Assembly (NCBI RefSeq): GCF_014119005.1 | Contig: NZ_JACGYX010000001.1 | Span: forward strand, 62,001 to 126,000 | Source: Psychrobacter sp. GP33 | GTDB taxonomy: Bacteria; Pseudomonadota; Gammaproteobacteria; Pseudomonadales; Moraxellaceae | Direction: 5' to 3' | Length of the DNA: 64,000 nucleotides | In this document: positions 11,523 to 62,970 of the stretch, piece after piece | How the letters are laid out: every line of letters begins with the position of its first letter | How positions within the stretch are numbered: the stretch's first letter is position 1 | Notes under the pieces: model-generated | The model's input: the letters and a program-made list of their open reading frames with translations, nothing else | What the model was told of the DNA's origin: nothing | The model's database searches: none | Program-made: the position numbers and the translations under genes

Positions 11523-12431
11523 ATGCTAAGTATGACACCGCGCTTAAAGCCAATCCTCGAGCTGCTTAATCGCTTCTCAGTATGGCTACTGTTATTGGCG
11601 ATTGGCTGGTTGTGCTGGACGGCAGCGCGCTTATTGTGGCTGCTGGTAGCAGCGCCTGTTGCACCGACGTTGCCACTTGTACCGTTACAAAACAATAAAG
11701 CAACGACGGACTATAGTGGACTGTATGCGATATTTTCTGACCCAGCACCTGCTACCGCTGCTGTCCAGCCGCCCAATGTGTTGTTAAAAGGGGTGCTGCT
11801 TGCAAGTCCGGAAAGTTTGTCCTCTGCGATGTTAGACGTCAATGGTGAGGTAAAAAATTATCGGATTGGAGACACCTTGCAAGGCAGTGGATATACCCTT
11901 ATAGCGGTTGATTGGAATGCAGTGATTATTGCCGATGCCAATGACCAGCAGACTGTTATTCGTATGGCAGATGCGATATCGCTTGACCAACGCGGATTGG
12001 CAGAGGGTGCCATGAGCAATCAGCGGCTGCCGGACGGCATTCAAAATATGGGTGCGCCTATGCAAAATGTGCCTATGGAAGATGGGTCAGTCGATAATAA
12101 TGGCGCTGGCGCAACGACCGACAATAACAATCCTGAATCGCCTATTGACGAAGCAGTCACTGCCTTACAAGAAAATCCGGCAAGCTATTTAAGCCGTATG
12201 GGCGTCATGGCATCGGGAGAAGGCTATCAGGTAACCGCAGCAATGCCAGCAGGCGTACGCAGCCGCTTAGGGTTGGAGCCGGGGGACAAAGTGCTATCGG
12301 TTAATGGGCAATCGGTCGGTAATAATCCTAGCCAAGATGCTGGGCTCTTACAGCAAGTGCAGCAATCAGGTGAAGCCAAAATAGAGGTGAAGCGCGGTAA
12401 TCAGGTAATTACGATACGTCAGCAGTTTTAA
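11523..12431 (+). CDS. gspC: Type II secretion system protein C
   Basis: The 302-residue inner-membrane protein connects the secretion platform to the secretin. It shows a single N-terminal helix (residues 17-40). The HR domain follows (about 75-150, including LLKGVLLASPESLSSAML), then an Asn/Asp-rich linker and a C-terminal PDZ domain (about 205-302, LGLEPGDKVLSVNGQSV). The ATG follows immediately after the gspN stop. Next comes a 200-base gap with a weak stem (GCCTA/TAGGC, 12450-12465) before gspD. Confidence 0.92.
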   Translation: MLSMTPRLKPILELLNRFSVWLLLLAIGWLCWTAARLLWLLVAAPVAPTLPLVPLQNNKATTDYSGLYAIFSDPAPATAAVQPPNVLLKGVLLASPESLSSAMLDVNGEVKNYRIGDTLQGSGYTLIAVDWNAVIIADANDQQTVIRMADAISLDQRGLAEGAMSNQRLPDGIQNMGAPMQNVPMEDGSVDNNGAGATTDNNNPESPIDEAVTALQENPASYLSRMGVMASGEGYQVTAAMPAGVRSRLGLEPGDKVLSVNGQSVGNNPSQDAGLLQQVQQSGEAKIEVKRGNQVITIRQQF

Positions 12432-46081: not shown

Positions 46082-47605
46082 ATGCTTTTATTCGATTCTA
46101 CTTTTAATCATCACAAAGAAATATTTAACTATTCGAATTTAGCCTTAGCCTGCCTTTTAGCGCTGGGCACTCTAAATATAACTGGGTGTGATAAAACCAA
46201 TACAGAAGCGACAGCCACTAACGCGGTCGAACCCATGACAGATAAAGCCTCGAGTAAAGATAACGGCGGAGAAGGGGACTTGCCAATTATCGATGCGGTG
46301 CTGACTCATGCGCCTAACGTACCACCACCTATTAATCGTGACTATCCTGCAAAGGTTAGGGTAAAGATGGAAACTGTCGAAACAGTTATGCGTTTGGCGG
46401 ACGGAGTAGATTATGAGTTCTGGACATTTGGCGGCCAAGTACCTGGTCAGTTTGTTCGAATTCGTGAAGGTGATGAGGTCGAGTTCCACTTATCAAATCA
46501 TCCTGACTCTAAGATGCCACACAATATCGATTTGCATGCAGTGACAGGACCGCATGGTGGCGCGTCGTCGTCGTTTACTGCACCGGGTTATACCTCGGAG
46601 TTTAATTTTAAAGCATTAAATCCAGGACTGTATGTCTATCACTGTGCAACGGCGCCCGTTGGCATGCACATTGCCAATGGTATGTACGGGCTAATATTGG
46701 TTGAGCCCAAAGAGGGCTTATCAAAAGTTGATCACGAGTATTATGTGATGCAAGGAGACTTCTACACCAAGGGTAGCTACGGTCAGCAAGGTCTTCAGCC
46801 CTTTGATATGGATAAGGCAGTCTCAGAGAATCCAGACTATGTCTTATTTAATGGCTCAGTGGGCGCGCTGACCGGTGATAATGCGCTGAAGGCCAATGTG
46901 GGCGAAACAGTACGCTTATTCGTTGGAAACGGTGGCCCGAACCTAGTGTCGTCTTTTCACGTCATTGGTGAAATCTTTGATAAAGTATATGTTGATGGCG
47001 GCACTACAGAGAATCATAACGTGCAGACGACGCTCATACCGTCAGGCGGTGCTGCGATTACCGAATTTAAGACAGACGTACCTGGTGAGTACATCTTGGT
47101 CGACCACTCAATCTTTCGTGCCTTTAATAAAGGAGCTTTAGGGATTTTGCAAGTCGAAGGTAAAGAGAACAAGCGCATCTATTCAGGCAAAACCAAATAC
47201 CGTGTCTATCTACCGGAAGGCGCAGCCACGCAAAGTATCGCTAATAGTAAACCTGCTCCGCGAAAAGTCGCCGCAAACAAGCAGCAGCGAATTGAGATGG
47301 GTAAATATGTCTATGATAATAACTGCGCCGCATGTCATCAGCCAACGGGGCTAGGTATCCCTAAAGCCTTTCCGCCGTTGGCTAAATCTGACTATTTACT
47401 CAAAGATCCCAATCGCGCTATCAATGCGGTCATACATGGCCTCAATGGCAAGATTATGGTTAATGGTGAAGTTTATGATAGCGTTATGCCAGCCGTTGCG
47501 CTAGATGACGAAAGAGTGGCAAACGTCGTGACTTATATCCTCAATACTTGGGGAAATAATGGTGGTGAAGTAACGCCAGATCAAGTTAAAGCCGCTCGTA
47601 AGTAG
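46082..47605 (+). CDS. nirK: Copper nitrite reductase with fused cytochrome c (AniA/NirK type)
   Basis: The 507-residue lipoprotein (lipobox ITGC, Cys36) reduces nitrite to NO in the periplasm. The cupredoxin halves show type 1 copper ligands His147, Cys188, His196 and Met201. Type 2 ligands are His152, His187 and His342, with catalytic Asp150 and His293. The short CATAPVGMH loop is the AniA kind. A C-terminal class I cytochrome c carries CAACH (415-419) and ends about residue 490. Fusing the electron donor to the enzyme is known in some NirK proteins. It follows copRS by about 235 bases and has its own AAGGAAC site. Confidence 0.93.
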
Positions 47606-48378: not shown

Positions 48379-49569
48379 ATGTTTCAAGATAATAATAACT
48401 ATCATCAGGAAATCTCTAATACTTCTAACAAAACGTTAGATACTGACGATAATTGGGTTAAGAAAATATGGGCATGGGCAGACGAATTTGAATTGCTCAA
48501 CTCTGAGGTTCCTCGTAATAAAGAGGCTTTGCTGGCCATGAAAAAGCTAGAAATTCTAGAGCCTGAACTGGATGAACAACATTCTAGAGATGTCTATAGA
48601 GTGGGCTATATACCTGACGAAATCACTTATCTGACGAATCTTGTAGAAATTAGTGTTAGTGGTATTAATTCGAGTCATTTACCGCAAAATATAGGGCTAC
48701 TCTCTAACCTAACCAAACTGTCTATCTATCATTCTAACCTTATAGAATTACCCAATAGTATTGGGCAACTCAGCAACCTGACTGAACTTCTTATTGATGA
48801 TAGTAAGCTCAAACAGCTACCTGATAGTATGGGTCAACTTGCTAATCTTACTAAGCTTTTTATTAGTCGGTGTAAGCTTAGATGCTTACCGGATAGTTTT
48901 GGTCAGCTCTCTAATCTTACGGAACTTGATCTGATTGACTGTGAGTTGGCAGAATTACCTGACAGCATTGGTCAACTTAGTAGTCTTACTAAGCTTTTTA
49001 TTAATCATTGTAATCTTAAACACTTGCCTAATCATGTCGGACAATTCAGTAACCTGACTCAGCTAGACCTGATTCACTGTGCGTTTAAACATCTTCCTGA
49101 TAATATTGGGCAACTCGCTAACCTAACTAAGTTGTATATTAATCATTGTGAGCTTATAGACCTTCCTAATAGCATTGGGCAACTTCATAATTTAACGGAG
49201 CTTTTTATTAGTCACTGTCTTCTGGAAGAATTACCTGACAGTATTGGCCAGCTCACTAGCCTAACCAAGCTTGATCTTATTAATTGTAACCTTAAATGCT
49301 TACCTGATAGCATTGGGCAACTTAGTAACCTTACGGAGCTTAATCTTATTCACTGTCATCTCGAATCTTTTCCAGACAGTATTCATCAGCTCAATAACCT
49401 AACCAAGCTTAATTTTACGGATTGTGGACTTAGAGAGCTACCTGAGAGTTTTTTACAGCTCACTAATCTAGAATGGGTTAATTTTAACGGAAACCCTCTC
49501 GATAATCTTTCTACGCCTATATTAAATCATCTACTTACCACAAATACAGTATATGGTTTGGAGAGATAG
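48379..49569 (+). CDS. Leucine-rich-repeat protein with a cysteine ladder
   Basis: The 396-residue cytosolic protein has an N-terminal helical region (about residues 20-75, KKIWAWADEFELL) followed by 13 LRR units of 23 residues each (consensus LSNLTELDLIDCELAELPDS). At the position normally held by Asn, nine successive units have Cys (RC, DC, HC, HC, HC, HC, NC, HC, DC). Alternating TEL/TKL units give a two-repeat rhythm. No signal peptide is visible. Its function is unknown; LRR proteins usually bind other proteins. It starts 11 bases after the sdhB-like stop. Confidence 0.85.
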   Translation: MFQDNNNYHQEISNTSNKTLDTDDNWVKKIWAWADEFELLNSEVPRNKEALLAMKKLEILEPELDEQHSRDVYRVGYIPDEITYLTNLVEISVSGINSSHLPQNIGLLSNLTKLSIYHSNLIELPNSIGQLSNLTELLIDDSKLKQLPDSMGQLANLTKLFISRCKLRCLPDSFGQLSNLTELDLIDCELAELPDSIGQLSSLTKLFINHCNLKHLPNHVGQFSNLTQLDLIHCAFKHLPDNIGQLANLTKLYINHCELIDLPNSIGQLHNLTELFISHCLLEELPDSIGQLTSLTKLDLINCNLKCLPDSIGQLSNLTELNLIHCHLESFPDSIHQLNNLTKLNFTDCGLRELPESFLQLTNLEWVNFNGNPLDNLSTPILNHLLTTNTVYGLER

Positions 49570-50127: not shown

Positions 50128-51033
50128 TTACAAGAAATAATACTCTTGAACGTAGGCCACACATAGCTCATAGAAAGCTTGAGCCGGTGGAGATATAGAT
50201 TTATTGGCTAATTTAAAAATACCGATTTGTCTATTCAAAGAAGGGTCAAGTAAATTTATCCAGACCAGTTCGGGCTCATTAGAAGGGAAGGCAAGTTTCG
50301 GCAGGGTAGTAATGCCAAGATCGTTTCTTAATAAGGAGAACAGTGAGGTAATATTTTCTACCGTATATCGAGCCTTTCGATTGAGCACTTCTGCAGGTGT
50401 ATTCTCAAGCAACTTACAAGTGCCGTTATAAATAAACGGCTCTGCCATAAGTTGCTGCCACTTTAATCCGTGCGACTGAGTTAATTCATCACTTTCTTGC
50501 AAATGGTTCAGCTCATTACTTTTAAGACAAACCACACCGATGGGATCTGATATAAGCAGGGTAAAATCAATTTCTTTTTCATCAATACTCGTACAGTTTC
50601 CCAATGCCAAATCTACTTCACCCGTGAGTAATCGATTTGCTACGCCAACCGCATTATCATCTATCAATACGATTTCGATATCGGGATATTTTTTTGAATA
50701 AGCAACTAACACGCTAGGCAATAGCTTAGTCACTAGCGATGGCACACTGGCAATTCTTATTTTCCCCTTTTCTCCTGATGCTATTGCCTGTAAATCGTCT
50801 TCTAATCCTTGATAGACACTGAGAAACTGTTGAATTTTGGGCACACAGCTTTCTCCAAAAGGGGTCAATGTTGCTTTATTTCCAACTTCAAATAAACGCT
50901 GATCTAGTGTCTTCTCAAGCTCCTTTATCGATGCGGATAATGCTGCCTGTGACCTGTTAGCGCGGTTAGCTGCTGCACGAAACCCGCCTTCTTCTACCAC
51001 AAATAAAAAATGTCGTAACTGCTGTAGTTTCAT
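50128..51033 (-). CDS. LysR family regulator of the RidA-BCCT locus
   Basis: The 301-residue protein has an N-terminal winged HTH (MKLQQLRHFLFVVEEGGFRAAANR...QAALSASIKELE) and a periplasmic-binding-like effector domain. It is divergent from the RidA-led gene set with a 176-base gap that contains a T-N11-A palindrome. It is therefore very likely the local activator, responding to the substrate or a pathway intermediate. Confidence 0.92.
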   Translation of the reverse strand: MKLQQLRHFLFVVEEGGFRAAANRANRSQAALSASIKELEKTLDQRLFEVGNKATLTPFGESCVPKIQQFLSVYQGLEDDLQAIASGEKGKIRIASVPSLVTKLLPSVLVAYSKKYPDIEIVLIDDNAVGVANRLLTGEVDLALGNCTSIDEKEIDFTLLISDPIGVVCLKSNELNHLQESDELTQSHGLKWQQLMAEPFIYNGTCKLLENTPAEVLNRKARYTVENITSLFSLLRNDLGITTLPKLAFPSNEPELVWINLLDPSLNRQIGIFKLANKSISPPAQAFYELCVAYVQEYYFL

Positions 51034-51089: not shown

Positions 51090-51106
51090 GATAGATTAAA
51101 TCTATC
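51090..51106. promoter_or_regulatory. LysR-type operator palindrome
   Basis: GATAGATT-A-AATCTATC is a perfect 8-bp inverted repeat that contains the LysR core T-N11-A. It lies midway between the divergent lysR and ridA genes. Confidence 0.7.
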
Positions 51107-51209
51107 GTTTTTGATATTTAATTAGTTAGATTTATCATTATTTATTGCGTAGGATAAGCACTAACAAAGAAATAAATTGTGAAACCATTCAATCAAGGGA
51201 TATGACGAT

Positions 51210-51599
51210 ATGACCACTCACTCAACCAAACAAGCGGTTAAAACCTCACTTTATGCCTCTAAGTCGCCACTTGAATGGGCAGTCACAAACAATGGAACTT
51301 TATATACTGCGCAAATTCCTATTGATGAGAATGGTGACGTGGTTGCGGGTGGTATCGAAGCCCAAACTCGACAAACGCTAGATAACCTTAAACACACCTT
51401 AGAATGTGCCAATGCCAGCATGGATTCAGTATTACAAGTACTCATCTATGTTACAGATCGCGAGTATCTAAAAACGGTTAATCAAGTTTATGCTGAATAC
51501 TTTACTGCACCTTACCCAAACCGTGCTGCGCTAGTCATATCAGGATTGGCAAGAGAAGAAATGCTGGTTGAGCTGGTCGTATATGCGGCTGTGCTATAA
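51210..51599 (+). CDS. RidA family protein
   Basis: RidA proteins hydrolyse reactive enamines or imines formed by PLP enzymes and protect against 2-aminoacrylate stress; some have dedicated catabolic roles. The 129-residue protein has the Rid fold (QTRQTLDNLKHTLECANAS, VYVTDREYLKTVNQVYAEYF) and the key Arg in PYPNRAALVISG. It leads the catabolic set and probably handles an imine intermediate there. Confidence 0.9.
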   Translation: MTTHSTKQAVKTSLYASKSPLEWAVTNNGTLYTAQIPIDENGDVVAGGIEAQTRQTLDNLKHTLECANASMDSVLQVLIYVTDREYLKTVNQVYAEYFTAPYPNRAALVISGLAREEMLVELVVYAAVL

Positions 51600-51674
51600 A
51601 CCTTTTCGACTCTATTTACCTAAGTATTCAAAAACTTTCATCATTCAAATTTTTAATAAACTAAGGACAATATA

Positions 51675-53138
51675 ATGTCAAATCAAGCCCTCAAACAAGA
51701 CCCAAAAAAATCACTTTATATCAATGGTGAATGGCAAGCGGGTAGTAATACCATTGCCAATATTAATCCATCAGATGTTAGTGAAACGATTGGCGAGTTT
51801 GCTCAAGCCAGTAGCGAACAAGTACAAGATGCCATTGCCGCTGCACGCCTTGCACAGCCAAAATGGGAAAAAACGCCCATGGAGAAAAAGCAATCTATCT
51901 TGCAAGCGATTGGCGATGAGATGATTGCGCGTTGTGATGAATTGGGTACTTTGCTATCACGTGAAGAAGGCAAACCTTTCGCTGAAGGTCGTGGCGAGAT
52001 TTATCGTGCTGGTCAATTCTTTCATTATTATGCCGCTGAAGTATTACGCCAGATGGGTGACCTTGCTGACTCGGTGCGTCCTGGTGTGAAAGTCGAAGTG
52101 ACCCGTGAAGCAGTCGGTGTCGTCGCTATCATTTCACCTTGGAACTTCCCAACTGCTACTGCTGTCTGGAAAATTGCACCAGCGTTAGCCTATGGCAACA
52201 GTGTCATCTGGAAGCCTGCGAATCTAACGCCTGCTAGTGCGGTTGCTTTAGCTGAAATCATTCACCGTCAAGGGTTACCAGAAGGTACGTTTAACTTAGT
52301 ATTGGGTGGTGGCTCATCAGTTGGTGACGCGCTGATTAATTCAAAAGATATCGATGCAGTTAGCTTTACTGGTTCAGTCGCAACAGGCCGCAAAGTTGCT
52401 GCGGCAACCGCGCCAAACTTTGTCCGTTGCCAACTTGAGATGGGTAGTAAAAACGCCTTGGTCATTGCCGATGATGCTGATTTGCAAGTTGCCATTGATG
52501 CTGCCGTTGCTGGTGCATTTGGTGGTTCAGGACAAAAATGTACTGCATCTTCACGCTTGATTGTGATGGACGGTATTCATGATGCTTTCGTCGACGGTGT
52601 TGTCGCAAAAATGAAAACTTTAAAAGTTGGTCACGCGCTTGATGACGGTATTTTTATGGGTCCGATTGTTGATGACAAACAGCTTGCGTCTAACATGGAT
52701 TGGATCGAAAAAGCCAAGCAATTAGGTGCCAATTTAGCCTTTGGTGGTGAGCGTTTAGACATGCCGCATGAGGGTTACTATATGTCACCAACTTTGTTCA
52801 CCGAGACTGATAATAGCTGGGACGTTAACCAAGAAGAAGTATTCGCGCCAATGGCTTGTGTGATGCGTGTGAAGAATTTAGAAGAAGCGATTGCTATGAC
52901 CAATGATACGCGCTTTGGTTTGACAGGTGGCATTATCACTCAAAGCTTGCGTAATAGCGCGATGTTTAAGGAACAAGTACAAGCAGGCTGCGTCATGGTC
53001 AATCTAGCAACCGCTGGTACCGATTATCATGTGCCGTTTGGTGGTCGTAAAGAGTCAAGCTTTGGTCCACGCGAACAAGGTTCGTATGCCAAAGAGTTTT
53101 ATACCATTGTTAAAACGGCTTATCAGAAAGCGTACTAG
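51675..53138 (+). CDS. NAD(P)-dependent aldehyde dehydrogenase
   Basis: The 487-residue enzyme oxidises an aldehyde to an acid. Motifs are the substrate/cofactor region PWNFPTATAVWKIAPAL, the general base Glu in LEMGSKNALV and nucleophile Cys in GSGQKCTASSR. The CTASSR context is usual in alpha-ketoglutarate-semialdehyde dehydrogenases, so a C5 semialdehyde is possible. The specific substrate cannot be read. It is 75 bases downstream of ridA. Confidence 0.9.
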   Translation: MSNQALKQDPKKSLYINGEWQAGSNTIANINPSDVSETIGEFAQASSEQVQDAIAAARLAQPKWEKTPMEKKQSILQAIGDEMIARCDELGTLLSREEGKPFAEGRGEIYRAGQFFHYYAAEVLRQMGDLADSVRPGVKVEVTREAVGVVAIISPWNFPTATAVWKIAPALAYGNSVIWKPANLTPASAVALAEIIHRQGLPEGTFNLVLGGGSSVGDALINSKDIDAVSFTGSVATGRKVAAATAPNFVRCQLEMGSKNALVIADDADLQVAIDAAVAGAFGGSGQKCTASSRLIVMDGIHDAFVDGVVAKMKTLKVGHALDDGIFMGPIVDDKQLASNMDWIEKAKQLGANLAFGGERLDMPHEGYYMSPTLFTETDNSWDVNQEEVFAPMACVMRVKNLEEAIAMTNDTRFGLTGGIITQSLRNSAMFKEQVQAGCVMVNLATAGTDYHVPFGGRKESSFGPREQGSYAKEFYTIVKTAYQKAY

Positions 53139-53245
53139 AGGCTTATTAAAAGGGCTTATAAAAAAGGATGCTAGCCGCAATCGAGGCGCAACTGATTGGA
53201 CATGCACCTAGCGGCTACTTACACAAAGCAGAAAAGGAATTTGAT

Positions 53246-54232
53246 ATGTACCAAGACCATATCGTCATTGACGGATTACAGTATAGCCATTGGGATCGTG
53301 ATTATTTCAAAATGCTACAAGCCAGTGGTATTCATGCGGTACATGCCACTTTGGTATACCACGAGGATGCACGGCAGACGATGACTCGCTTTGCCGAGTG
53401 GAATAGCCGCTTTGAACAAAACTCAGACCTGATCTTACCGGTATATTCAGTGTTTGATATTGAGAATGCGAAGCAGCAAGGCAAAGTGGGTATATTTTTT
53501 GGCGCACAGAACTGTTCACCGATTGATGATGAGATTGGTCTTATTAGTGTCATGCGCCGTTTAGGTCTATTAATTATGCAATTGACCTATAACAACCAGA
53601 GCTTACTGGCGACGGGTTGTTATGAGCAAAATGATTCAGGGGTAACACGTTTCGGTCAACAAGCCATAGCCGAGATGAATCGAGTCGGTATGATTATTGA
53701 TATGTCGCACAGCGCAGAGCAATCAACGCTTGAAGCCATTGAGATATCGAGCCGTCCAATCTGTATCAGTCATGCCAATCCGACTACTGCGCATGAAGCG
53801 TTGCGTAATAAATCTGACACCGTTATTAGTGCTTTAACCAAGGCAGGTGGCTTATTAGGATTTAGCTTATATCCTTTTCATTTACCGAATGGCAGTGATT
53901 GTACGTTAAATGATTTTTGTACCATGATTGCTGATTGTGCTGATAAATATGGCGTTGAGCATTTAGCGATTGGTAGTGACTTATGCCTTAACCAACCACA
54001 AGCAGTACTCGAGTGGATGCGTAACGGGCGTTGGTCAAAGGCAATGGACTATGGTGAAGGCAATGCTAATAACTCAGGTTGGCCAGATACTTTGCCGTGG
54101 TTTGCGGGCAAGGATGGTATGGAAAATATTTATAACGGTTTATTAAAACATGGCTTCAATGATAAAGATGCTGGAAAAATCATCGGTCAAAATTGGTTTG
54201 ATTTTCTTGAAAGCGGTATAAAACCTTTATAA
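53246..54232 (+). CDS. M19 (renal dipeptidase)-like protein lacking metal ligands
   Basis: From ATG 53246, with an AAAGGAA site, the protein has 328 residues and the M19 TIM-barrel landmarks: DMSHSAEQS, CISHANPTTAHEALRNKSD and a final IGSDLCLNQPQ. Two M19 elements are absent. The N-terminal HxD zinc motif reads DGLQYS, and the bridging Glu (normally in an EG context) falls in FGAQNC. It is therefore probably not a classical dipeptidase but may hydrolyse or rearrange another amide or amine with one metal, or none. A longer frame from 53168 is possible but its ribosome site is poor. Confidence 0.85.
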   Translation: MYQDHIVIDGLQYSHWDRDYFKMLQASGIHAVHATLVYHEDARQTMTRFAEWNSRFEQNSDLILPVYSVFDIENAKQQGKVGIFFGAQNCSPIDDEIGLISVMRRLGLLIMQLTYNNQSLLATGCYEQNDSGVTRFGQQAIAEMNRVGMIIDMSHSAEQSTLEAIEISSRPICISHANPTTAHEALRNKSDTVISALTKAGGLLGFSLYPFHLPNGSDCTLNDFCTMIADCADKYGVEHLAIGSDLCLNQPQAVLEWMRNGRWSKAMDYGEGNANNSGWPDTLPWFAGKDGMENIYNGLLKHGFNDKDAGKIIGQNWFDFLESGIKPL

Positions 54233-54358
54233 AGCGTTTAGTAATATTTAGCGCTTCAACCTAACAAAATGAACGTATAAACCAGCAAGGCAGTGTTAAT
54301 GTCCGTGTCAATGTAATACCGACCTAAGCGAAACAACTTTATTATATGGAGCCACACC

Positions 54359-56059
54359 ATGGCTGATTTAAAGGGAATTAATAGTAAGCATAGTGAGCAA
54401 GGAAGCTCAATCATTCCTGATGTTTCATTGGACAATTTGGTTCAAAGCGAAGAATCATCGGATACTCTAGGACTGAAAAACCCTGCTTTTTGGTACAGTG
54501 GTGGTTTTATCGTTATCTTTGTTTTAATGGCGATATTTGCAGAAGCGCGTTTAGCAAAAATAGTTAATGTAGGTTTTGTATGGTCGGCAAATGTCTTTGG
54601 TCCTTTTTGGCAACTTCTGCTGCTGGCGACGTTTGTGATTGCGTTAGCCGTTGGTGCTGGTCGTACGGGTCGGGTTATTTTAGGCAATTTACCCAAGCCT
54701 GAAATGGATAATTTCAAATGGATGGCGATTTTATTCTGTACGCTACTGGCTGGCGGCGGCGTTTTTTGGGCAGCGGCTGAGCCTATCGCTCACTTTGTGA
54801 CCGCGCCACCTTTATATGGTGAATCGACTGATATCCAACAACGCGCCATTAATGCATTGTCACAATCGTTTATGCATTGGGGGTTTTTAGCGTGGTCGAT
54901 TGTTGGTAGCTTAACCGCTATTGTGGTGATGCACTTGCATTATGACAAAGGTCTTCCTCTCAAACCGCGTACGCTGTTATATCCAGTATTTGGTGAACGT
55001 GTTCTGCATGGTCAAACGGGCGCAATCATTGATGCGTGCTGTATTGTAGCGGTTGCTGCAGGTACGATTGGTCCTATTGGCTTTTTGGGTCTACAAACCA
55101 GCTATGCCCTCAACACGCTATTTGGTATTCCTGATACCTTTACCACTCAGCTTATTATTATCATATTTGCTATCGCCCTTTATACCCTCTCAGCCATTAG
55201 TGGACTGACCCGAGGAATGCAAATACTGAGCCGTTTTAATGTGATATTGGCTTTTGGGTTGATGGTCTTTATTTTAATGTTTGGTCCTAGTAAGTTTATT
55301 GTGAATGGTTATATTCAAGGCGTTGGCACGATGGTGCATAACTTTATCCCGATGGCAACGTATCGTGGTGATGAAGTCTGGCTTGGTGGTTGGACGGTGT
55401 TCTTTTGGGGTTGGTTCTTGGGCTATGGTCCGATGATGGCTATCTTTATCGCCCGTATCTCCCGTGGTCGTACGATTCGTCAGTTGATCACGACGGTTTG
55501 TATTATTGCCCCGCTGGTTACTTGCTTTTGGTTCACGGTTATTGGCGGTACAGGTCTGGCGTTTGAGATTGCCAATCCAGGTAGTGTCAGTACTGCTTTT
55601 GAAGGCTTTAATCTTCCGGGTGCGTTATTAGCAATCACTCAACAGCTTCCGTTCCCCTTGATTACCTCGTTACTGTTTATCATTTTGACCATGATCTTTA
55701 TCGTCACGACGGGCGACTCGATGACTTATACCATCAGTGTCGTTATCAGTGGTGAGCGCGAGCCCAACGCTACGATTCGTACCTTTTGGGGCATCATGAT
55801 GGGTGTGACAGCGATTGCTTTAATCTCACTTGGTGACGGCGGTGTGACTGCGTTGCAATCCTTTATTGTGATTACCGCAGTGCCTGTGTCTTTTATTCTA
55901 CTGCCATCGTTATGGAACGGACCTAAAATTGCGCAACAAATGGCTCACGACCAAGATCTTTATCGTCCTAACCGAGTTGAGACTGCTCATCGACTTGCTG
56001 AAGAAAAAATTGCTACAGAGAGTATTACTAAAAAAACAGTCACTAAAGAAATCAGTTAA
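54359..56059 (+). CDS. BCCT family transporter (betaine/choline/carnitine type)
   Basis: The 566-residue, 12-helix transporter shows the BCCT signatures GGGVFWAAAEPIAHF in helix 4 and the FIARISRGRTIRQ segment after helix 8. BCCT carriers take up quaternary amines or DMSP with Na+ or H+. The usual WSPFVG turn before FIARIS is replaced by YGPMMA, so substrate range may differ. A long N-terminal (50 residues) and short C-terminal tail are hydrophilic. It is the uptake step of the locus. Confidence 0.92.
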   Translation: MADLKGINSKHSEQGSSIIPDVSLDNLVQSEESSDTLGLKNPAFWYSGGFIVIFVLMAIFAEARLAKIVNVGFVWSANVFGPFWQLLLLATFVIALAVGAGRTGRVILGNLPKPEMDNFKWMAILFCTLLAGGGVFWAAAEPIAHFVTAPPLYGESTDIQQRAINALSQSFMHWGFLAWSIVGSLTAIVVMHLHYDKGLPLKPRTLLYPVFGERVLHGQTGAIIDACCIVAVAAGTIGPIGFLGLQTSYALNTLFGIPDTFTTQLIIIIFAIALYTLSAISGLTRGMQILSRFNVILAFGLMVFILMFGPSKFIVNGYIQGVGTMVHNFIPMATYRGDEVWLGGWTVFFWGWFLGYGPMMAIFIARISRGRTIRQLITTVCIIAPLVTCFWFTVIGGTGLAFEIANPGSVSTAFEGFNLPGALLAITQQLPFPLITSLLFIILTMIFIVTTGDSMTYTISVVISGEREPNATIRTFWGIMMGVTAIALISLGDGGVTALQSFIVITAVPVSFILLPSLWNGPKIAQQMAHDQDLYRPNRVETAHRLAEEKIATESITKKTVTKEIS

Positions 56060-56162
56060 GTGCGTCATTACTATAGCGAATAATTTATTTACTCATTTAG
56101 TTCAGTGTTTACACGTAGCAAATAAATTATTGGCTTAACCCATTATTTAAGGTGATAGTTAT

Positions 56163-57905
56163 ATGGAACATACTTTGCCAAACAACGAAAAGCTAGCCAA
56201 CGATAATCTAGACGCGGTCAGCTTCCGTACCCCCGATGTGGTGATGCACTCTGAAAGATTGGGCGCGATGCACCAAACGCGTATCAGCTTTGTGCGGTCG
56301 CTCCTGCGTAAAATCGATAAAGAAAATTGGACGTTAACTAAGCATCTTTGGGATTTAGATGATAATGGCTACGGACAAGTTATTTATCGTTTGCAAACGC
56401 CTGAGCACATTTACCACTTAGTGGTATTCTGCAATCAAATTGCTGATGAAGAGCGTAACGACCGCGTGATTGCGCAAAAATGGGATGTAACATTTGCATT
56501 GGTTTATGGCGAAATCGGCGATGAGTTATTGGCAAACCTAAAAGCAAATGTGCCGCTACAAGAAGCAGGTCGCAACTCAAATATGGTCATGGTATTGGCA
56601 CGTGCTAATAAAAGCGTGCGCGTCTTTGACCACATTGTCAGCGCGCTTGCTGACGGGCAACAGCCTGATTTGGACGTCTTGGCGCAAGTCGGTTATATCT
56701 TGCGTACGACAGCCGTTTATGGTAATGGGAAATTCGGTATTTACGACTTTAAGCCACTCGATCACAGTGAAGACTTTAACCAGTCTTTTCGCGCGCAGAT
56801 GTGTGCCGTTTATTTGCTAAGAGAATTTAGCCTAGATTGGGTGGATTATTTGGCGAAGAAAAAAGGCGGCGATAAGGCAGTCAGCTTACATCCAGAGATT
56901 AAGCAATATTTGGGTATCGGTAATGCCACTGGTCTTGGGATGGCACCTTATTTAATTAATCATCCTTGTGTCGTTGATCAATGGTTAAGTACTCGCGAAG
57001 GGGCACTACAAGCGGTATTGGTCTGTGATATTGAGCCTGAATCTGATAATAGCAAAATACAGCAATTCTCAACCTTAATGAATCGTGCTATTCAACACTT
57101 CTCGGAAGTGGTCACCATCAATGAGCCGCAAATTCTACTGAATAGTACGGTCGTTAAAGAGTTAACAACGTTGCAAGAAAACCTTGCTACTGAGCTTAAA
57201 GACTGCGATACGTGGGCTGATTTTTTACAGCGTAATGACCATCTCAGTTATGAGAGTCAAGAAGTCATTATCTCGTGCATGATGGAGCTTTATCCTGAGC
57301 TTGTAGATGATTTTGCAGGGCAAGTAAATGCTGATGAAACCATGTCACTACCGAGTGGCAAAGTCGTTCAAGACTTGATTGAAGTATTAGAAGCGCGTTA
57401 TCAGTGGGCAATTAACATTGATTTTGCTGCAGAAGAGAATGTCTATTGGTTTTGGTATCGCTCTGAGGATAAAGAAGAGCCGAGAATGGGCGTACGTGGA
57501 CAAGAGCAGGGCGATGATAAAGAGTTCTTACTTGATATTGGTAGACAAGCCAATACGCTGTACTTGGCGTTACAACAAGCAGATCCACAACAGTTGCTAT
57601 CAGAATTTATCTTAACCCAGCCAAAATATCGCACAATCGCCCGTCGCGTATGGACAATGGGTCATAAAAAGATGGGTGATATTCAGATTAACGTATTGCA
57701 AAAGACCGCATTACCGATGCATTTATTACGCTGTAAATTGTCTATGTTTGGTGCAACCAAATTTGATCCGCGTTCAGATCGCTGGGTGCGTGTGACATTG
57801 TTCCAAGGTGCGCCGTTATTCGATGACGTCCACAGTGATGAATGGCTATTTCCTCTTTTACCAAAAATAAATGAGCTACCGACCTTACCATTAGCCGCCC
57901 AATAA
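56163..57905 (+). CDS. 580-residue protein of unknown family in the catabolic locus
   Basis: The protein is hydrophilic, without signal peptide or membrane helix, and rich in Trp and Asp. Possible landmark segments are HLWDLDDNGYGQVIYRL, NATGLGMAPYLINHP and DFAAEENVYWFWYRSE, followed by RRVWTMGHKKMGDIQINV. I recognise no fold. It is packed 13 bases before the next gene and about 100 bases after the transporter, so it belongs to the same transcript. Its presence argues for a catalytic or assembly role specific to this pathway. No function is claimed. Confidence 0.72.
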   Translation: MEHTLPNNEKLANDNLDAVSFRTPDVVMHSERLGAMHQTRISFVRSLLRKIDKENWTLTKHLWDLDDNGYGQVIYRLQTPEHIYHLVVFCNQIADEERNDRVIAQKWDVTFALVYGEIGDELLANLKANVPLQEAGRNSNMVMVLARANKSVRVFDHIVSALADGQQPDLDVLAQVGYILRTTAVYGNGKFGIYDFKPLDHSEDFNQSFRAQMCAVYLLREFSLDWVDYLAKKKGGDKAVSLHPEIKQYLGIGNATGLGMAPYLINHPCVVDQWLSTREGALQAVLVCDIEPESDNSKIQQFSTLMNRAIQHFSEVVTINEPQILLNSTVVKELTTLQENLATELKDCDTWADFLQRNDHLSYESQEVIISCMMELYPELVDDFAGQVNADETMSLPSGKVVQDLIEVLEARYQWAINIDFAAEENVYWFWYRSEDKEEPRMGVRGQEQGDDKEFLLDIGRQANTLYLALQQADPQQLLSEFILTQPKYRTIARRVWTMGHKKMGDIQINVLQKTALPMHLLRCKLSMFGATKFDPRSDRWVRVTLFQGAPLFDDVHSDEWLFPLLPKINELPTLPLAAQ

Positions 57906-57918
57906 GGAGTATTGAGAC

Positions 57919-58644
57919 ATGATCGTATCGCATAATGAAATCGTGACCATGGTGAATAAAGCCTTTTTGGGGTTGCAACGTGAAGTCGGGGAGGCTGACT
58001 TGATTGCCTCGATGGTAGCAGAGCTGCAAATGGCAGGTCTTAACGGCATCACCCACTTTAATAATGCCAGTCCATTTATTTTATCTGAACGTGATGCGCC
58101 TATCGATATCGTCCATCAAGCTGACGGTGAAGTCAGTTTGGATTTGCATGGCAGCAGTTTGGTTTGTCATCTGCCTGCTGTGATGGACTACGCCATTGAA
58201 AAAATGGGCAATCGTGATCACTTTAAAATCTATTTGCGCAACTGCCATAATCGCTGGTTGGCTTATAGTGAGCTGGTAAATCTTGCGGCAAAAGGTATCG
58301 CTTGTTTAGCTAAATGGGACAATGGCACAGCACCGAAGCATACAATATTTACTTTAGATAAAAGATTCGTTTATCCTGATATATATTATTTTAATGAGGC
58401 ACAGGATAACTATAATACCAACGATATGGTGATTGAGCTGTCGACCTCTAATTTTGATATTGAACAAGAAATCCAAATTTTTGACAAAAAAGTATCAACG
58501 GATGAGCTGTTTGAAACTCATAAACGCGCATGGAAAGAAGGTATTTATGTCGATGATGAGCAGTGGGCGATACTAAAGAAAAGTGCATCGGCGATATTGG
58601 TAGAAAACAGTGAGGCATCAAGTAAGGGAGCAGGAGGGTTATAG
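57919..58644 (+). CDS. DUF3726-like protein
   Basis: The 241-residue cytosolic protein begins MIVSHNEIVTMVNKAFLGLQ, which I associate with the DUF3726 family; the assignment is from memory of the family pattern, not from a search. Its biochemical role is unknown. It starts 13 bases after the 580-residue gene with AAGGAG ahead of ATG, so the two are translationally close and probably act together. It is the last gene of the set. Confidence 0.65.
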   Translation: MIVSHNEIVTMVNKAFLGLQREVGEADLIASMVAELQMAGLNGITHFNNASPFILSERDAPIDIVHQADGEVSLDLHGSSLVCHLPAVMDYAIEKMGNRDHFKIYLRNCHNRWLAYSELVNLAAKGIACLAKWDNGTAPKHTIFTLDKRFVYPDIYYFNEAQDNYNTNDMVIELSTSNFDIEQEIQIFDKKVSTDELFETHKRAWKEGIYVDDEQWAILKKSASAILVENSEASSKGAGGL

Positions 58645-59281: not shown

Positions 59282-60184
59282 TCAATCTTTATCATTACTT
59301 ATGTAATTTTGCTCACAGTGTTGATGCGCTAAGCCAATAAACGCTTTATTAGCAGCGCTCTGATAAGCACCTTTTCGTTGCAGCAATACGGCAGTGCGCT
59401 GTAGTAAAGAGGGTGCCAGGGCAATCGCAATCAGCTCATCGCGATTACTCACGATGTTGGACGGTAACAAGGTGCTCAATTGCGTGTTGCGTACTATCTC
59501 AATCACAGCACTTAATGAGTTTGCCTCCATCAATACCTTTGGCTGGATGTCGTGTTGGCGCCAATAACGCTCAATTTGTCCACGGGTTACAAATTCATGG
59601 CTGAGTAATACCAGTTCCTGTTCACTTAGCGTTTGTACATCAATCGCTTGGCGCTTTGCAAGCGGATGATTTTTGTTCACGACCAACGCCAGTGTTTCAA
59701 TGAGTAGAGTCTGCGCTTCTATATCAGCAGATTTTACATCCGCAAAAGCAATACCCACATCGAATTCATCATTAAGCAACTGCTTTTCCATCTGCTCCTG
59801 CGACATCTCTTGTACGCTCAGCGTGACGTTAGGATAACGGTCATGAAATGCTTTTATCAGCGGGCCAATGAGGTAGGTGGTAAAGGTAGGAGTAATGGCA
59901 ATCCGCAACGCGCCGCGACTCAGATTTTGCACATCGTGAATGGCTCGTTGCCCCTCTTCTAAATCCTGTAACGCTTTATGCGCATACCGAGCATACACCT
60001 CACCGGCGTGGGTAAGCTTGACACGACGTCCCGACCGATCAAATAAAGGCGCGCCTAAAGTTTCTTCTAATTGCTTAATTTGTTGTGATAAAGCGGGCTG
60101 CGAGACATAAAGAGACGCTGCTGCTTGGGTGAAGCTTTGATGCTTGGCAACCGCGAGGAAGTATTTTATGTGTCTAAGTATCAT
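59282..60184 (-). CDS. cynR: LysR-type cyanate operon regulator
   Basis: The 300-residue protein has an N-terminal LysR HTH (MILRHIKYFLAVAKHQSFTQAAASLYVSQPALS) and the C-terminal effector domain. It resembles CynR in its opening and in its position divergent from cynT. CynR activates cynTSX in response to cyanate in E. coli. Three direct TTATCGA repeats lie in the shared promoter. Confidence 0.9.
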   Translation of the reverse strand: MILRHIKYFLAVAKHQSFTQAAASLYVSQPALSQQIKQLEETLGAPLFDRSGRRVKLTHAGEVYARYAHKALQDLEEGQRAIHDVQNLSRGALRIAITPTFTTYLIGPLIKAFHDRYPNVTLSVQEMSQEQMEKQLLNDEFDVGIAFADVKSADIEAQTLLIETLALVVNKNHPLAKRQAIDVQTLSEQELVLLSHEFVTRGQIERYWRQHDIQPKVLMEANSLSAVIEIVRNTQLSTLLPSNIVSNRDELIAIALAPSLLQRTAVLLQRKGAYQSAANKAFIGLAHQHCEQNYISNDKD

Positions 60185-60298
60185 GGTTTCTCGATTGTTA
60201 TTTTTTTATGTTCATTACTTTATTGTCATTGCGGACGTTATTGGTGTTTATCAATAGCCATCATAATTTATATCTCGTCCTTTACCTATAAGTATTTG

Positions 60299-60366
60299 TT
60301 ATCGAAATCATAATATACCAGTCTTTTACCTTATCGAAATAACGGCGTAGTATTCACTTTATCGAC
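60299..60366. promoter_or_regulatory. Candidate CynR-binding direct repeats
   Basis: TTATCGAAAT occurs at 60299-60308 and 60331-60340, and TTATCGAC at 60359-60366, spaced 32 and 28 bases (about three turns). They lie between cynR and cynT. Confidence 0.5.
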
Positions 60367-60384
60367 ACAACAGAGACCGCCGTT

Positions 60385-61044
60385 ATGAAAGATATTATTG
60401 AAGGCTTTTTAAAGTTCCATAGCGAGGCTTATCCAAAACGCGCCGATTTATTCAAGGATTTAGCGACTCAGCAAAACCCGCGCACGTTATTTATCTCTTG
60501 CTCGGACAGTCGCTTAGTCCCTGAGTTGGTCACCCAACGCGAACCTGGTGGTCTGTTCGTGATTCGTAACGCTGGTAACATCGTTCCATCTTATGGACCT
60601 GAGCCTGGTGGGGTCTCTGCCTCGGTAGAGTACGCCGTCACCGCACTACAAGTGACCGATGTGGTGATTTGTGGGCACTCAGACTGTGGAGCTATGTCTG
60701 CCATTGCCAATTGTACCTGTATGGAGCATATGCCAGCGGTTGGTAGCTGGCTAAAATACGCCGACTCAGCGCGTGTGGTGAATGAATCTATCACTCATCT
60801 CAATGACAGCGACCGTATTGAATCTATGGTACGAGAAAATGTCATTGCTCAGATTGAAAATATCAAAACCCATCCCTCTGTTCGTCTGGCGATAAGAGAA
60901 GGACGCTTGGCTTTACATGGTTGGGTTTACGATATTGAAACAGGTGGCATTGATGCTTTAGATGGCGCTACCAACACCTTTGTTGCGCTTGCCGAGAATA
61001 CAGAAGTTCGCGCTTATCCTATAGCACTGCCAGTCGCGATTTAA
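60385..61044 (+). CDS. cynT: Beta-carbonic anhydrase of the cyanate operon
   Basis: The 219-residue enzyme hydrates CO2 to bicarbonate, which is the co-substrate and is lost as CO2 in cyanate breakdown. Zinc ligands are visible: Cys with Asp and Arg in CSDSRLVP, then His and Cys in GHSDCGAM. The EPGG motif and NAGNI match CynT. It lies first in the operon, 102 bases ahead of cynS. Confidence 0.96.
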
Positions 61045-61146
61045 ACCATCCTTACTGTTTTATTGACGCTAAATACGATTGACTTAATTGCCATCATTTA
61101 CTAATAACGATTCACTAATAACCACTAATTAATAAAAGGTACTACC

Positions 61147-61617
61147 ATGATTCAGTCTCAAGTTAGCAACACCGCCCGTCAAGCTTTAACCGACACCATC
61201 ATTGCCGCTAAAGCTGATAAAAACTTATCGTTTGAGCAAATAGCTGCAGGCACTAATCTTAGCGATGTCTATGTGACTGCAGCGCTGCTTGGTCAGCACC
61301 CATTGCCTGCGGATGCCGCACAAAAAGTCGGCGAAACGTTAGGTCTTGATGACGAAGCCATCGTTTTACTACAAGCAATTCCACACCGCGGCAGTGTGGG
61401 CAGTGAAATGCCTACAGATCCTACCATCTATCGGTTTTATGAGATGATGCAGGTCTATGGCACAACTCTTAAAGCACTGGTACATGAGCAGTTTGGTGAT
61501 GGCATCATCAGCGCGATTAACTTTAAAGTGGATATCAAAAAAGTTGCCGATCCAGAAGGTGGCGACCGTGCTGTCATTACCCTTGATGGTAAATTTCTAC
61601 CTTTTAAGCCTTTCTAA
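61147..61617 (+). CDS. cynS: Cyanate hydratase (cyanase)
   Basis: The 156-residue decameric enzyme converts cyanate and bicarbonate to ammonia and CO2. Catalytic Arg, Glu and Ser are seen in [13 protein letters not shown] (Arg and Glu) and GIISAINF (Ser). The N-terminal helical domain ([21 protein letters not shown]) is as expected. It allows use of cyanate as nitrogen source and detoxification. Confidence 0.97.
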
Positions 61618-61758
61618 TCGTTTATAAAGTTTTACGAACCTTTTTGAAAAGGTTAAAACGCTTAAAAGTTAAAACTTTAGAAAAATATGGCAAAAGTCGG
61701 CGCTCAGCGTCGGATTTTTTGGGCTACACTTTTAGCAATAAAGGACATCATCTTACTA

Positions 61759-62970
61759 ATGATTACTGAACGTATTTCCTCTACGAGACACCAGTCGGCG
61801 CTGACGTTATTTTGGCCTATGCTCGTGATTGCTGGATTGGCATTAACGCTACGTCCAACCGTGACGTCCACTGGCCCGCTTCTGGAAGGGATTAGACTGA
61901 GTACTGGTATGGGCTTACAAGCGGCCTCTTTATTGGTCGTGTTACCGATGCTGTGTATGGGAGTTTTCCCTTTATTGCTACCTTTAATTGGGAAACATCT
62001 GAGCGAAAACGCTTGGATAACGGGTGGGCTATTAGCGATTGCTGCATCTGGTTTATGGCGTTTGGGTTTAGGAACAGGTTGGGCGTTGATTGCTAGCGCC
62101 TTAATAGGTGGTACTGGTATTGCTATCGTACAGGCGTTAGCACCCGGCGTGGTAAAACGCTGGTATCCTCAGCGTGTCCCGTTAGCCATGGGTATTTATT
62201 CAGCATTACTAATGGCTGGGGGCGGCATTGCGGCAACACTGAGCCCAGTAGTTGCTCAGCATTATGGCAGTTGGCAAGCAGGTCTTGGGATATGGTTGCT
62301 GTTGCCTGTAGTAGCACTTTTTTTGTGGTGGTTAAGACCGTCCGAGGTGATGGAAACAAAGCATAATGGCGTGGCAGTCAATTTTTTTAAGAATCGGCGC
62401 GCATGGTTATTAGCCAGCTACTTTGGCTTAGCGAACGCTGGTTATGCTTGTATGATTGCATTTCTACCGACTTATGCTCATGATTTAGGATGGAGCGCCC
62501 AAGGTAGTGGCGAGCTAATCGGTATTATGACTATTTTTCAAGTGCTGGGTGCGTTAGGTGCGCCTGCGCTGTCTGCTCATCGCTTAGATCGTCGCCCTTG
62601 GTTATTTTTTGCTGTAGGTATTCAGATTGTAGGCTTTGCAGGATTAATTCTGATGCCAGAGTCACTGCTGATTCTGTGGGCAGCTATGATAGGTGGTGGT
62701 CTTGGCGCTTGTTTTTCATTAACGCTTACCGTGGCGCTTGACCATCTATCCGCACCTAGATTGGCTGGCGCACTGACGGCATTTGTACAAGGAATAGGTT
62801 TTATTATTACCGCTATTGTTCCTTATTTCGCAGGGTTTTTACGTGAATGGTTAGGTAGCTTTCAGGTCGTTTGGCTACTGCTTTTGAGCACGCTGGTAGC
62901 CATGCTGGTGGTCACGATGAAGTTTGTTCCTACAGGTTATGCTAAGGCGATCAATCTTCCTAATACTTAA
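61759..62970 (+). CDS. cynX: Cyanate transporter, MFS (CynX-like)
   Basis: From ATG 61759 (403 residues) the protein has about 12 membrane helices. Landmarks resemble E. coli CynX: LTLRPTVTSTGPLLEGIR, IGGTGIAIVQALAPGVVKR and FVQGIGFIITAIVPYFAG. An in-frame ATG at 61687 would add 24 residues, and its ribosome context is poor. It is the last gene of the cyanate operon. Confidence 0.85.
   Translation: MITERISSTRHQSALTLFWPMLVIAGLALTLRPTVTSTGPLLEGIRLSTGMGLQAASLLVVLPMLCMGVFPLLLPLIGKHLSENAWITGGLLAIAASGLWRLGLGTGWALIASALIGGTGIAIVQALAPGVVKRWYPQRVPLAMGIYSALLMAGGGIAATLSPVVAQHYGSWQAGLGIWLLLPVVALFLWWLRPSEVMETKHNGVAVNFFKNRRAWLLASYFGLANAGYACMIAFLPTYAHDLGWSAQGSGELIGIMTIFQVLGALGAPALSAHRLDRRPWLFFAVGIQIVGFAGLILMPESLLILWAAMIGGGLGACFSLTLTVALDHLSAPRLAGALTAFVQGIGFIITAIVPYFAGFLREWLGSFQVVWLLLLSTLVAMLVVTMKFVPTGYAKAINLPNT

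Follow-up and report, generated by a model that had tools for sequence, protein, structure and literature searches.

A seven-gene Psychrobacter operon as a candidate hydrolytic variant of the homarine catabolic pathway

We analysed a 64,000-nt stretch of DNA from Psychrobacter sp. GP33 (hereafter the window; assembly GCF_014119005.1, contig NZ_JACGYX010000001.1, positions 62,001 to 126,000), focusing on an operon that encodes an importer, a RidA-family protein, an aldehyde dehydrogenase (ALDH) and three proteins of unusual type, among them a 580-residue protein for which we use the working name U580. With moderate confidence, we propose that this LysR-controlled operon imports and fully breaks down an N-methylated pyridinium betaine, most likely homarine, by a hydrolytic version of the pathway that releases methylamine. 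Two lines of evidence carry this proposal: the linkage of related operons to N-methylglutamate dehydrogenase (Mgd) genes in roseobacters, and an exchange between RidA and an Ldh2-type reductase among the bacteria that hold U580.

Results

A conserved seven-gene catabolic unit

The initial annotation, made from the letters of the window alone, had described seven open reading frames with the LysR gene divergent from the other six, and the positions of the frames and their Pfam families bear this out (Table 1). It had further read the genes as one unit combining a betaine-type importer, an ALDH and RidA, and had named a lack of linkage in other genomes as the finding that would speak against this; of 35 related loci, 34 carry the full set with gene order and strands unchanged (33 Psychrobacter loci and one of Vibrio ostreicida), and the remaining one (L036) is a 4-kb contig that begins within U580. 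Chance does not account for this arrangement; the locus is a genuine catabolic unit.

Table 1. Features of the operon and its divergent promoter, in window positions.
Feature	Positions	Strand	Evidence or remark
LysR-type regulator	50128..51033	-	Pfam HTH_1 and LysR_substrate (96 bits); kept in 34/35 related loci
RidA-family imine/enamine hydrolase (predicted)	51210..51599	+	PF01042 Ribonuc_L-PSP, 83 bits
Aldehyde dehydrogenase (ALDH)	51675..53138	+	Pfam Aldedh, 518 bits
M19-like TIM-barrel protein	53246..54232 (annotated frame from 53168)	+	PF01244 Peptidase_M19, 233 bits
BCCT carrier (betaine/choline/carnitine family)	54359..56059	+	PF02028, 501 bits, residues 44-525 (full length)
U580, 580-aa protein without a family name	56163..57905	+	Proposed main ring-opening enzyme
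DUF3726 protein, short Ldh2-fold partner of U580	57919..58644	+	Pfam DUF3726, 56 bits
Probable LysR operator, 17-bp palindrome GATAGATTNAATCTATC with T-N11-A within	51090..51106		Conserved among 35 aligned intergenic stretches
Conserved GTTAGATTTATC element between operator and ridA	51125..51136	+	Conserved alignment columns

The better-known members of the operon fit a catabolic role. RidA retains the Arg (E. coli R105) and Glu typical of imine-hydrolysing Rid proteins, and R105 and E121 are invariant in an alignment of 11 sequences that includes E. coli RidA. RidA proteins generally guard against 2-aminoacrylate and other imines. The ALDH is nearest to the 2-oxoglutarate-semialdehyde and 2,5-dioxovalerate dehydrogenases, as had been suspected, although it scores under the curated cut-offs (482 of the 770 bits needed for NF042993 and 479 of 750 for NF052305). 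The BCCT carrier is clear as to family and reaches no NCBIfam cut-off. The earlier remark that neither an oxygenase nor DddD is present holds for the operon genes, and on these grounds two routes were set aside: demethylation of glycine betaine, as the operon has no Rieske gene, and a dimethylsulfoniopropionate lyase route, as it has no DddD.

Linkage to N-methylglutamate dehydrogenase genes points to homarine

In Phaeobacter inhibens 2.10 and Ruegeria TM1040, the related operon consists of a LysR gene beside ALDH, M19, BCCT, U580, DUF3726 and Ldh2 genes, and only LysR and an AraC-type gene lie between it and genes for sarcosine-oxidase-like alpha and gamma subunits. In genome G313, a 64-65% identical alpha gene is found about 3.4 kb from gmaS (TIGR03105, over cut-off), with glutamate-synthase- and glutamine-amidotransferase-type (mgs-like) genes on its other side and a regulator of the same DJ-1/AraC architecture that is 30% identical to the Phaeobacter regulator. 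Since G313 shows a gmaS-mgs-mgd arrangement, we assign the roseobacter alpha clade to Mgd. A related alpha subunit (40-42% identity) also lies within 8 kb of U580 in two genomes of 1.2-1.3 Mb (G580 and G663).

A 2026 paper by Ferrer-Gonzalez et al. in Nat Microbiol reportedly describes the operon homABCDER, found in Rhodobacterales, SAR11 and SAR116, and names N-methylglutamate as an intermediate. Five genes and a regulator, as in homABCDER, would fit the roseobacter operon. According to PMC13390433, Mgd has a part in the catabolism of homarine, for which Ferrer-Gonzalez et al. are cited, and a gene for an AraC-type regulator lies next to mgd; PMC12817926 reports that R. pomeroyi drew down homarine with a mean lifetime of at most 2 h. 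The initial annotation had left the substrate unnamed; because the U580 operon is linked to Mgd-type genes in roseobacters and because of the published statement on Mgd, homarine (N-methylpicolinate) is the likeliest substrate, and probably that of the window operon. The upstream module of ALDH, M19-like protein, U580, DUF3726, LysR and importer has probably been published already. Literature searches combining homarine with Psychrobacter, Vibrio, gene cluster or RidA, and a search on trigonelline ring cleavage, gave nothing on the operon in the window.

The same operon logic could serve another N-methylated heterocyclic or quaternary betaine, such as trigonelline or a proline-type betaine, which we regard as possible but rather unlikely. 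Betaine-class importers of the BCCT and ABC types have a broad range, Phaeobacter and plasmid pMPC6-328K carry genes for a Rieske oxygenase and an FAD oxidoreductase close to the operon, as in N-demethylation clusters, and a deep rhizobial branch carries IclR and other ABC genes without ALDH. The Rieske genes, however, are not conserved with the operon, being absent near the TM1040, Roseateles and Aminobacter loci and from the window operon, and the Mgd linkage indicates a product that ends as N-methylglutamate.

RidA and the Ldh2-type reductase are exchanged

We compared 83 loci, made up of the window, seven of the 35 related loci (six Psychrobacter and V. ostreicida), four and six plasmid loci and 65 long genome stretches. 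Within 8 kb of U580, RidA (at least 50% identity) was present in 18 and Ldh2 (at least 38% identity) in 25, with neither in 40 and both in none; the stretch of G098, a genome that is RidA-type by genome search, begins at a contig end and counts under neither. The exchange extends to whole genomes. Thirty genomes chosen from the U580 holders (10 RidA-type and 20 others) were searched for the alpha subunit of Mgd or sarcosine oxidase (Mgd/Sox) and for Ldh2. In the RidA-type genomes, Ldh2 of at least 38% identity was found in none of 10 (the best being 34% in G046 and 25% in G066) and the alpha subunit in one (G046), whereas genomes without RidA held Ldh2 in 29 of 33 cases and the alpha subunit in all 33; for 19 of these 33, the absence of RidA was judged from the locus. 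Fisher tests of the two contrasts gave p values of 2e-8 and 5e-7 by genome and of 0.004 and 0.004 by family, the fairer unit. The genome of the window itself (2.87 Mb, labelled G000, with its operon copy as locus L176) yielded no Mgd/Sox alpha subunit at E <= 1e-20 and no Ldh2 at E <= 1e-15.

On a midpoint-rooted FastTree of U580, whose support values were not read, RidA loci fall mostly in one clade together with three loci that lack RidA (L167-L169). The three RidA-less genomes inside this clade (G992, G1099 and G1191) encode Ldh2 (54-56% identity) and the alpha subunit (44-47%) elsewhere in the genome. We propose that RidA hydrolyses an N-methyl imine where Ldh2 bacteria reduce the imine to N-methylglutamate. 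Within the limited literature searched, we found no description of this exchange in print. GmaS was also tried as a marker of methylamine use; it scored over cut-off in five of 16 genomes, including two of the 10 RidA genomes (G138 and G174), and was not found at E <= 1e-100 in the Ldh2 genomes G115, G135 and G067, so that it does not separate the groups.

A second explanation, which we think unlikely to a similar degree as a different betaine substrate, is that RidA acts as a housekeeping-type detoxifier of a reactive enamine and does not replace Ldh2, with N-methylglutamate or some other product being made by enzymes encoded elsewhere. This would suit the general protective role of RidA and the 40 loci with neither gene. 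Against it, the RidA of the locus forms an orthologue of its own (identity of 63-100% in all 10 of the 10 RidA genomes, compared with a best RidA of at most 43% in 14 others tested), and its presence tracks the loss of Ldh2 and Mgd/Sox.

A proposed hydrolytic pathway

Under the homarine proposal, the BCCT carrier, whose family is clear, would import the betaine, and U580 and DUF3726, perhaps with the M19-like protein, would open the ring at C5-C6 to give an N-formyl-N-methyl enamine with a C5 aldehyde. C5-C6 cleavage giving an N-formyl group and a C5 aldehyde is known for trigonelline. The formyl group would then be removed, possibly by the M19-like protein, and the ALDH, again clear as to family, would oxidise the C5 aldehyde to N-methyl-2-iminoglutarate, which RidA may hydrolyse to 2-oxoglutarate and methylamine. 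For relatives that lack RidA, the gene exchange suggests that the Ldh2-type reductase makes N-methylglutamate from the same imine and that Mgd demethylates it; Ldh2-family enzymes such as DpkA form N-methyl amino acids from such imines. Going from homarine to N-methylglutamate would drop one ring carbon (C6), and the RidA route would need neither Ldh2 nor Mgd. The guess of a C5 skeleton in the initial annotation agrees with this scheme. More tentatively, we suggest for gamma- and betaproteobacteria a hydrolytic homarine route in which RidA has displaced Ldh2 and Mgd and U580 is a new ring opener in complex with DUF3726 and the M19-like His-His-Asp barrel.

Several points weigh against this scheme. 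The substrate is one that we infer. Ring opening by U580 and DUF3726 is a guess made with neither a cofactor motif nor a fold as guide. RidA and Ldh2 are both missing from the surroundings of U580 in 40 of the 83 loci, and an ALDH of at least 50% identity is missing in 35, so that the core may act on more than one substrate. Such an ALDH is also missing from the locus in 12 of the 33 comparison genomes, some loci being cut by contig ends. Mgd and sarcosine oxidase cannot be told apart by the alpha-subunit search alone, and one RidA genome, G046, encodes an alpha subunit of 42% identity together with its 34% Ldh2. The 38% limit for Ldh2 was chosen after the hits had been seen, and at E <= 1e-15 any Ldh2-type match occurs in two of the 10 RidA genomes. 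Finally, as RidA loci fall mostly in one clade, the exchange may be a single event or reflect few independent ones.

U580, DUF3726 and the M19-like protein

We propose U580 as the ring opener because U580, DUF3726 and the M19-like protein are the parts left without another job. U580 matches no family in Pfam, NCBIfam or PHROGs and has no sequence relative in the PDB, where the best profile hit (E 0.06), to a helical stretch of V-ATPase subunit C, was taken as chance. Dozens of polar residues are invariant across 24 diverse members. A predicted structure made from 13 close sequences reached a predicted local distance difference test (pLDDT) score of 57 and gave no Foldseek match at E <= 0.001, and no profile kinship was found between U580 and Ldh2.

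DUF3726, which had been counted as wholly uncharacterised, has the Ldh2 fold, and we describe it as a degenerate Ldh2 fold that forms the short partner of U580. The profile match to Ldh2 appears with a diverse DUF3726 alignment only and covers just the first ~130 columns; a narrow alignment gave no match by profile (0.4%). Compared with Ldh2-type N-methyl-amino-acid and piperideine-carboxylate reductases (DpkA, PDB 1wtj), DUF3726 is ~100 residues shorter and has no PF02615 match. A CHN motif seen in the Psychrobacter branch is not kept across the DUF3726 family at large. No printed account of the family turned up in the literature searched.

For the M19-like protein, the family assignment of the initial annotation stood, but the protein is not a canonical dipeptidase. 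The start is probably ATG 53246, since homologues (for example in L027 and L028) begin there. In 16 of 16 sequences, Gln replaces the bridging Glu of the dipeptidases and the HxD motif is missing, while the two His and the Asp ligands are kept; GLQ stands at the presumed, unaligned HxD position. In these respects the protein differs from renal-type M19 dipeptidases, with which it shares the family-level match. With the canonical metal ligands lost, we rejected a plain M19 dipeptidase. The nearest solved relative, PDB 2i5g ('amidohydrolase', 204 bits), departs from the dipeptidase ligands in the same ways.

Loss of these ligands and the degenerate fold of DUF3726 would allow non-catalytic roles, in which U580 and the M19-like protein would bind or transfer groups in compatible-solute turnover for osmoprotection or nitrogen scavenging and with partial carbon use, but we consider this quite improbable, given that the ALDH and RidA or Ldh2 argue for catabolism and that the M19-like protein keeps H157, H178 and D247 in 16 of 16 sequences, while U580 has its many invariant polar residues across 24 members.

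Distribution of the U580 core

Searches for U580 relatives gave hits in 168 of 72,556 plasmid records, in 29 of 398 genomes drawn from the phylum, in 53 of 385 from the class of G115 and in 16 of 369 from the class of the window. We looked at 26 of the 53 alphaproteobacterial genomes (six plus 20 new), and one of the 16 (G1183) was dropped as its locus is split over two contigs. In the neighbourhood comparison of U580 and DUF3726 that had been recommended, 77 of 83 loci have an M19-like gene no more than 8 kb from U580, and 77 have a DUF3726 gene there. An ALDH (at least 50% identity) is near U580 in 48 loci, a BCCT carrier (at least 45%) in 29 and a glycine-betaine-type ABC binding protein in eight. 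The core spans alpha- and gammaproteobacteria, often with betaine transporters and an Ldh2-type reductase. Its holders include genomes of 1.2-1.6 Mb (G580, G663, G423, G628 and G538) that look like streamlined ocean bacteria; the locus of G423 and G628 encodes Ldh2, a betaine ABC importer, ALDH, M19, U580 and DUF3726.

In a deep branch (S. meliloti, Bosea, G265 and Natrinema), the neighbours are of IclR type, an ALDH of at least 50% identity is missing, and the substrate may be a different one. In rhizobia and relatives (L072, L076 and L108, the last from G265), the U580, DUF3726-like and M19-like genes stand with an IclR regulator and another ABC importer as a sister system. On the Natrinema plasmid pNVE500 (L073), from a haloarchaeon, a U580 relative of 31% identity lies beside ALDH and BCCT genes. 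The RidA-type gene set also occurs in rearranged form, as two divergent arms, on pMPC6-328K (L038), a plasmid of an Antarctic Pseudomonas that is typed as conjugative; genes for a Rieske oxygenase and two of mandelate-racemase type lie close by.

Within Psychrobacter, U580 is found in 53 of 105 genomes, and strain TAE2020 has two copies (95% and 77% identity to that of the window), which indicates that the operon comes and goes. The second TAE2020 copy (L028) is flanked at 415-1188 and 11526-12116 by open reading frames that, judged by eye, resemble a transposase and a serine recombinase, suggesting a mobile island. U580 is in pieces in some strains (two pieces in L005 and L033; also genomes G787, G793 and G808), where the operon may thus be decaying.

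The divergent promoter and neighbouring genes

The best-conserved part of the LysR-ridA intergenic alignment, built from 35 stretches, is the palindrome GATAGATTNAATCTATC, a probable LysR operator of the divergent promoter. It occurs exactly in 24 of 35 related loci and in the window's own copy. Allowing up to two mismatches, it matches only here in the window genome, but the reversed control pattern also matches once, so this uniqueness says little and the case rests on position and conservation. The neighbouring GTTAGATTTATC element may be a second regulator contact or part of the promoter.

Beside the locus lies an ordinary cyanate operon (59282-62970), which encodes a CynR-like LysR (462 bits, over cut-off), a carbonic anhydrase, a cyanate lyase and an MFS carrier. 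On the other side, a 396-aa bacterial leucine-rich-repeat protein (48379-49569) adjoins the LysR gene, and 46082-47605 encodes a two-domain multicopper oxidase with a C-terminal cytochrome c, which we take to resemble a copper nitrite reductase-cytochrome c fusion.

Discussion

Homarine, which comes from algae and shellfish, is an abundant and quickly consumed marine metabolite. If the RidA version of the pathway is true, the same nitrogen would have two fates, glutamate in Mgd bacteria and free methylamine in Psychrobacter, Vibrio and relatives; the released methylamine would feed methylamine users, and one RidA protein would gain a specific metabolic role. U580, the DUF3726 protein and the degenerate M19-like protein together form a candidate ring-opening system.

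Among known systems, the trigonelline (tgn) pathway of Acinetobacter baylyi shares an N-methylpyridinium carboxylate substrate, an N-formyl intermediate, an ALDH and, in the proposed RidA version, the methylamine product, but its flavin monooxygenase/reductase pair is not among the operon genes of the window, which has U580, DUF3726 and the M19-like protein instead. The Gbc glycine-betaine and stachydrine N-demethylation routes have in common with our system the betaine importers and, in relatives of the operon, the sarcosine-oxidase-like downstream enzymes, but the window operon does not include the Gbc Rieske oxygenase. The homarine hom operon likely has the same upstream module, which is found next to Mgd-type genes in roseobacters and also in streamlined marine-type alphaproteobacterial genomes, in agreement with the reported range of the hom operon; the window genome differs in having RidA and a BCCT importer and no Mgd/Sox alpha subunit or Ldh2 at the limits used. 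As the alpha subunit was not found in the window genome, we file the Psychrobacter operon as a variant and not as a plain hom member. It is most likely a variant of the just-described homarine pathway, with the RidA/Ldh2 exchange as the new element.

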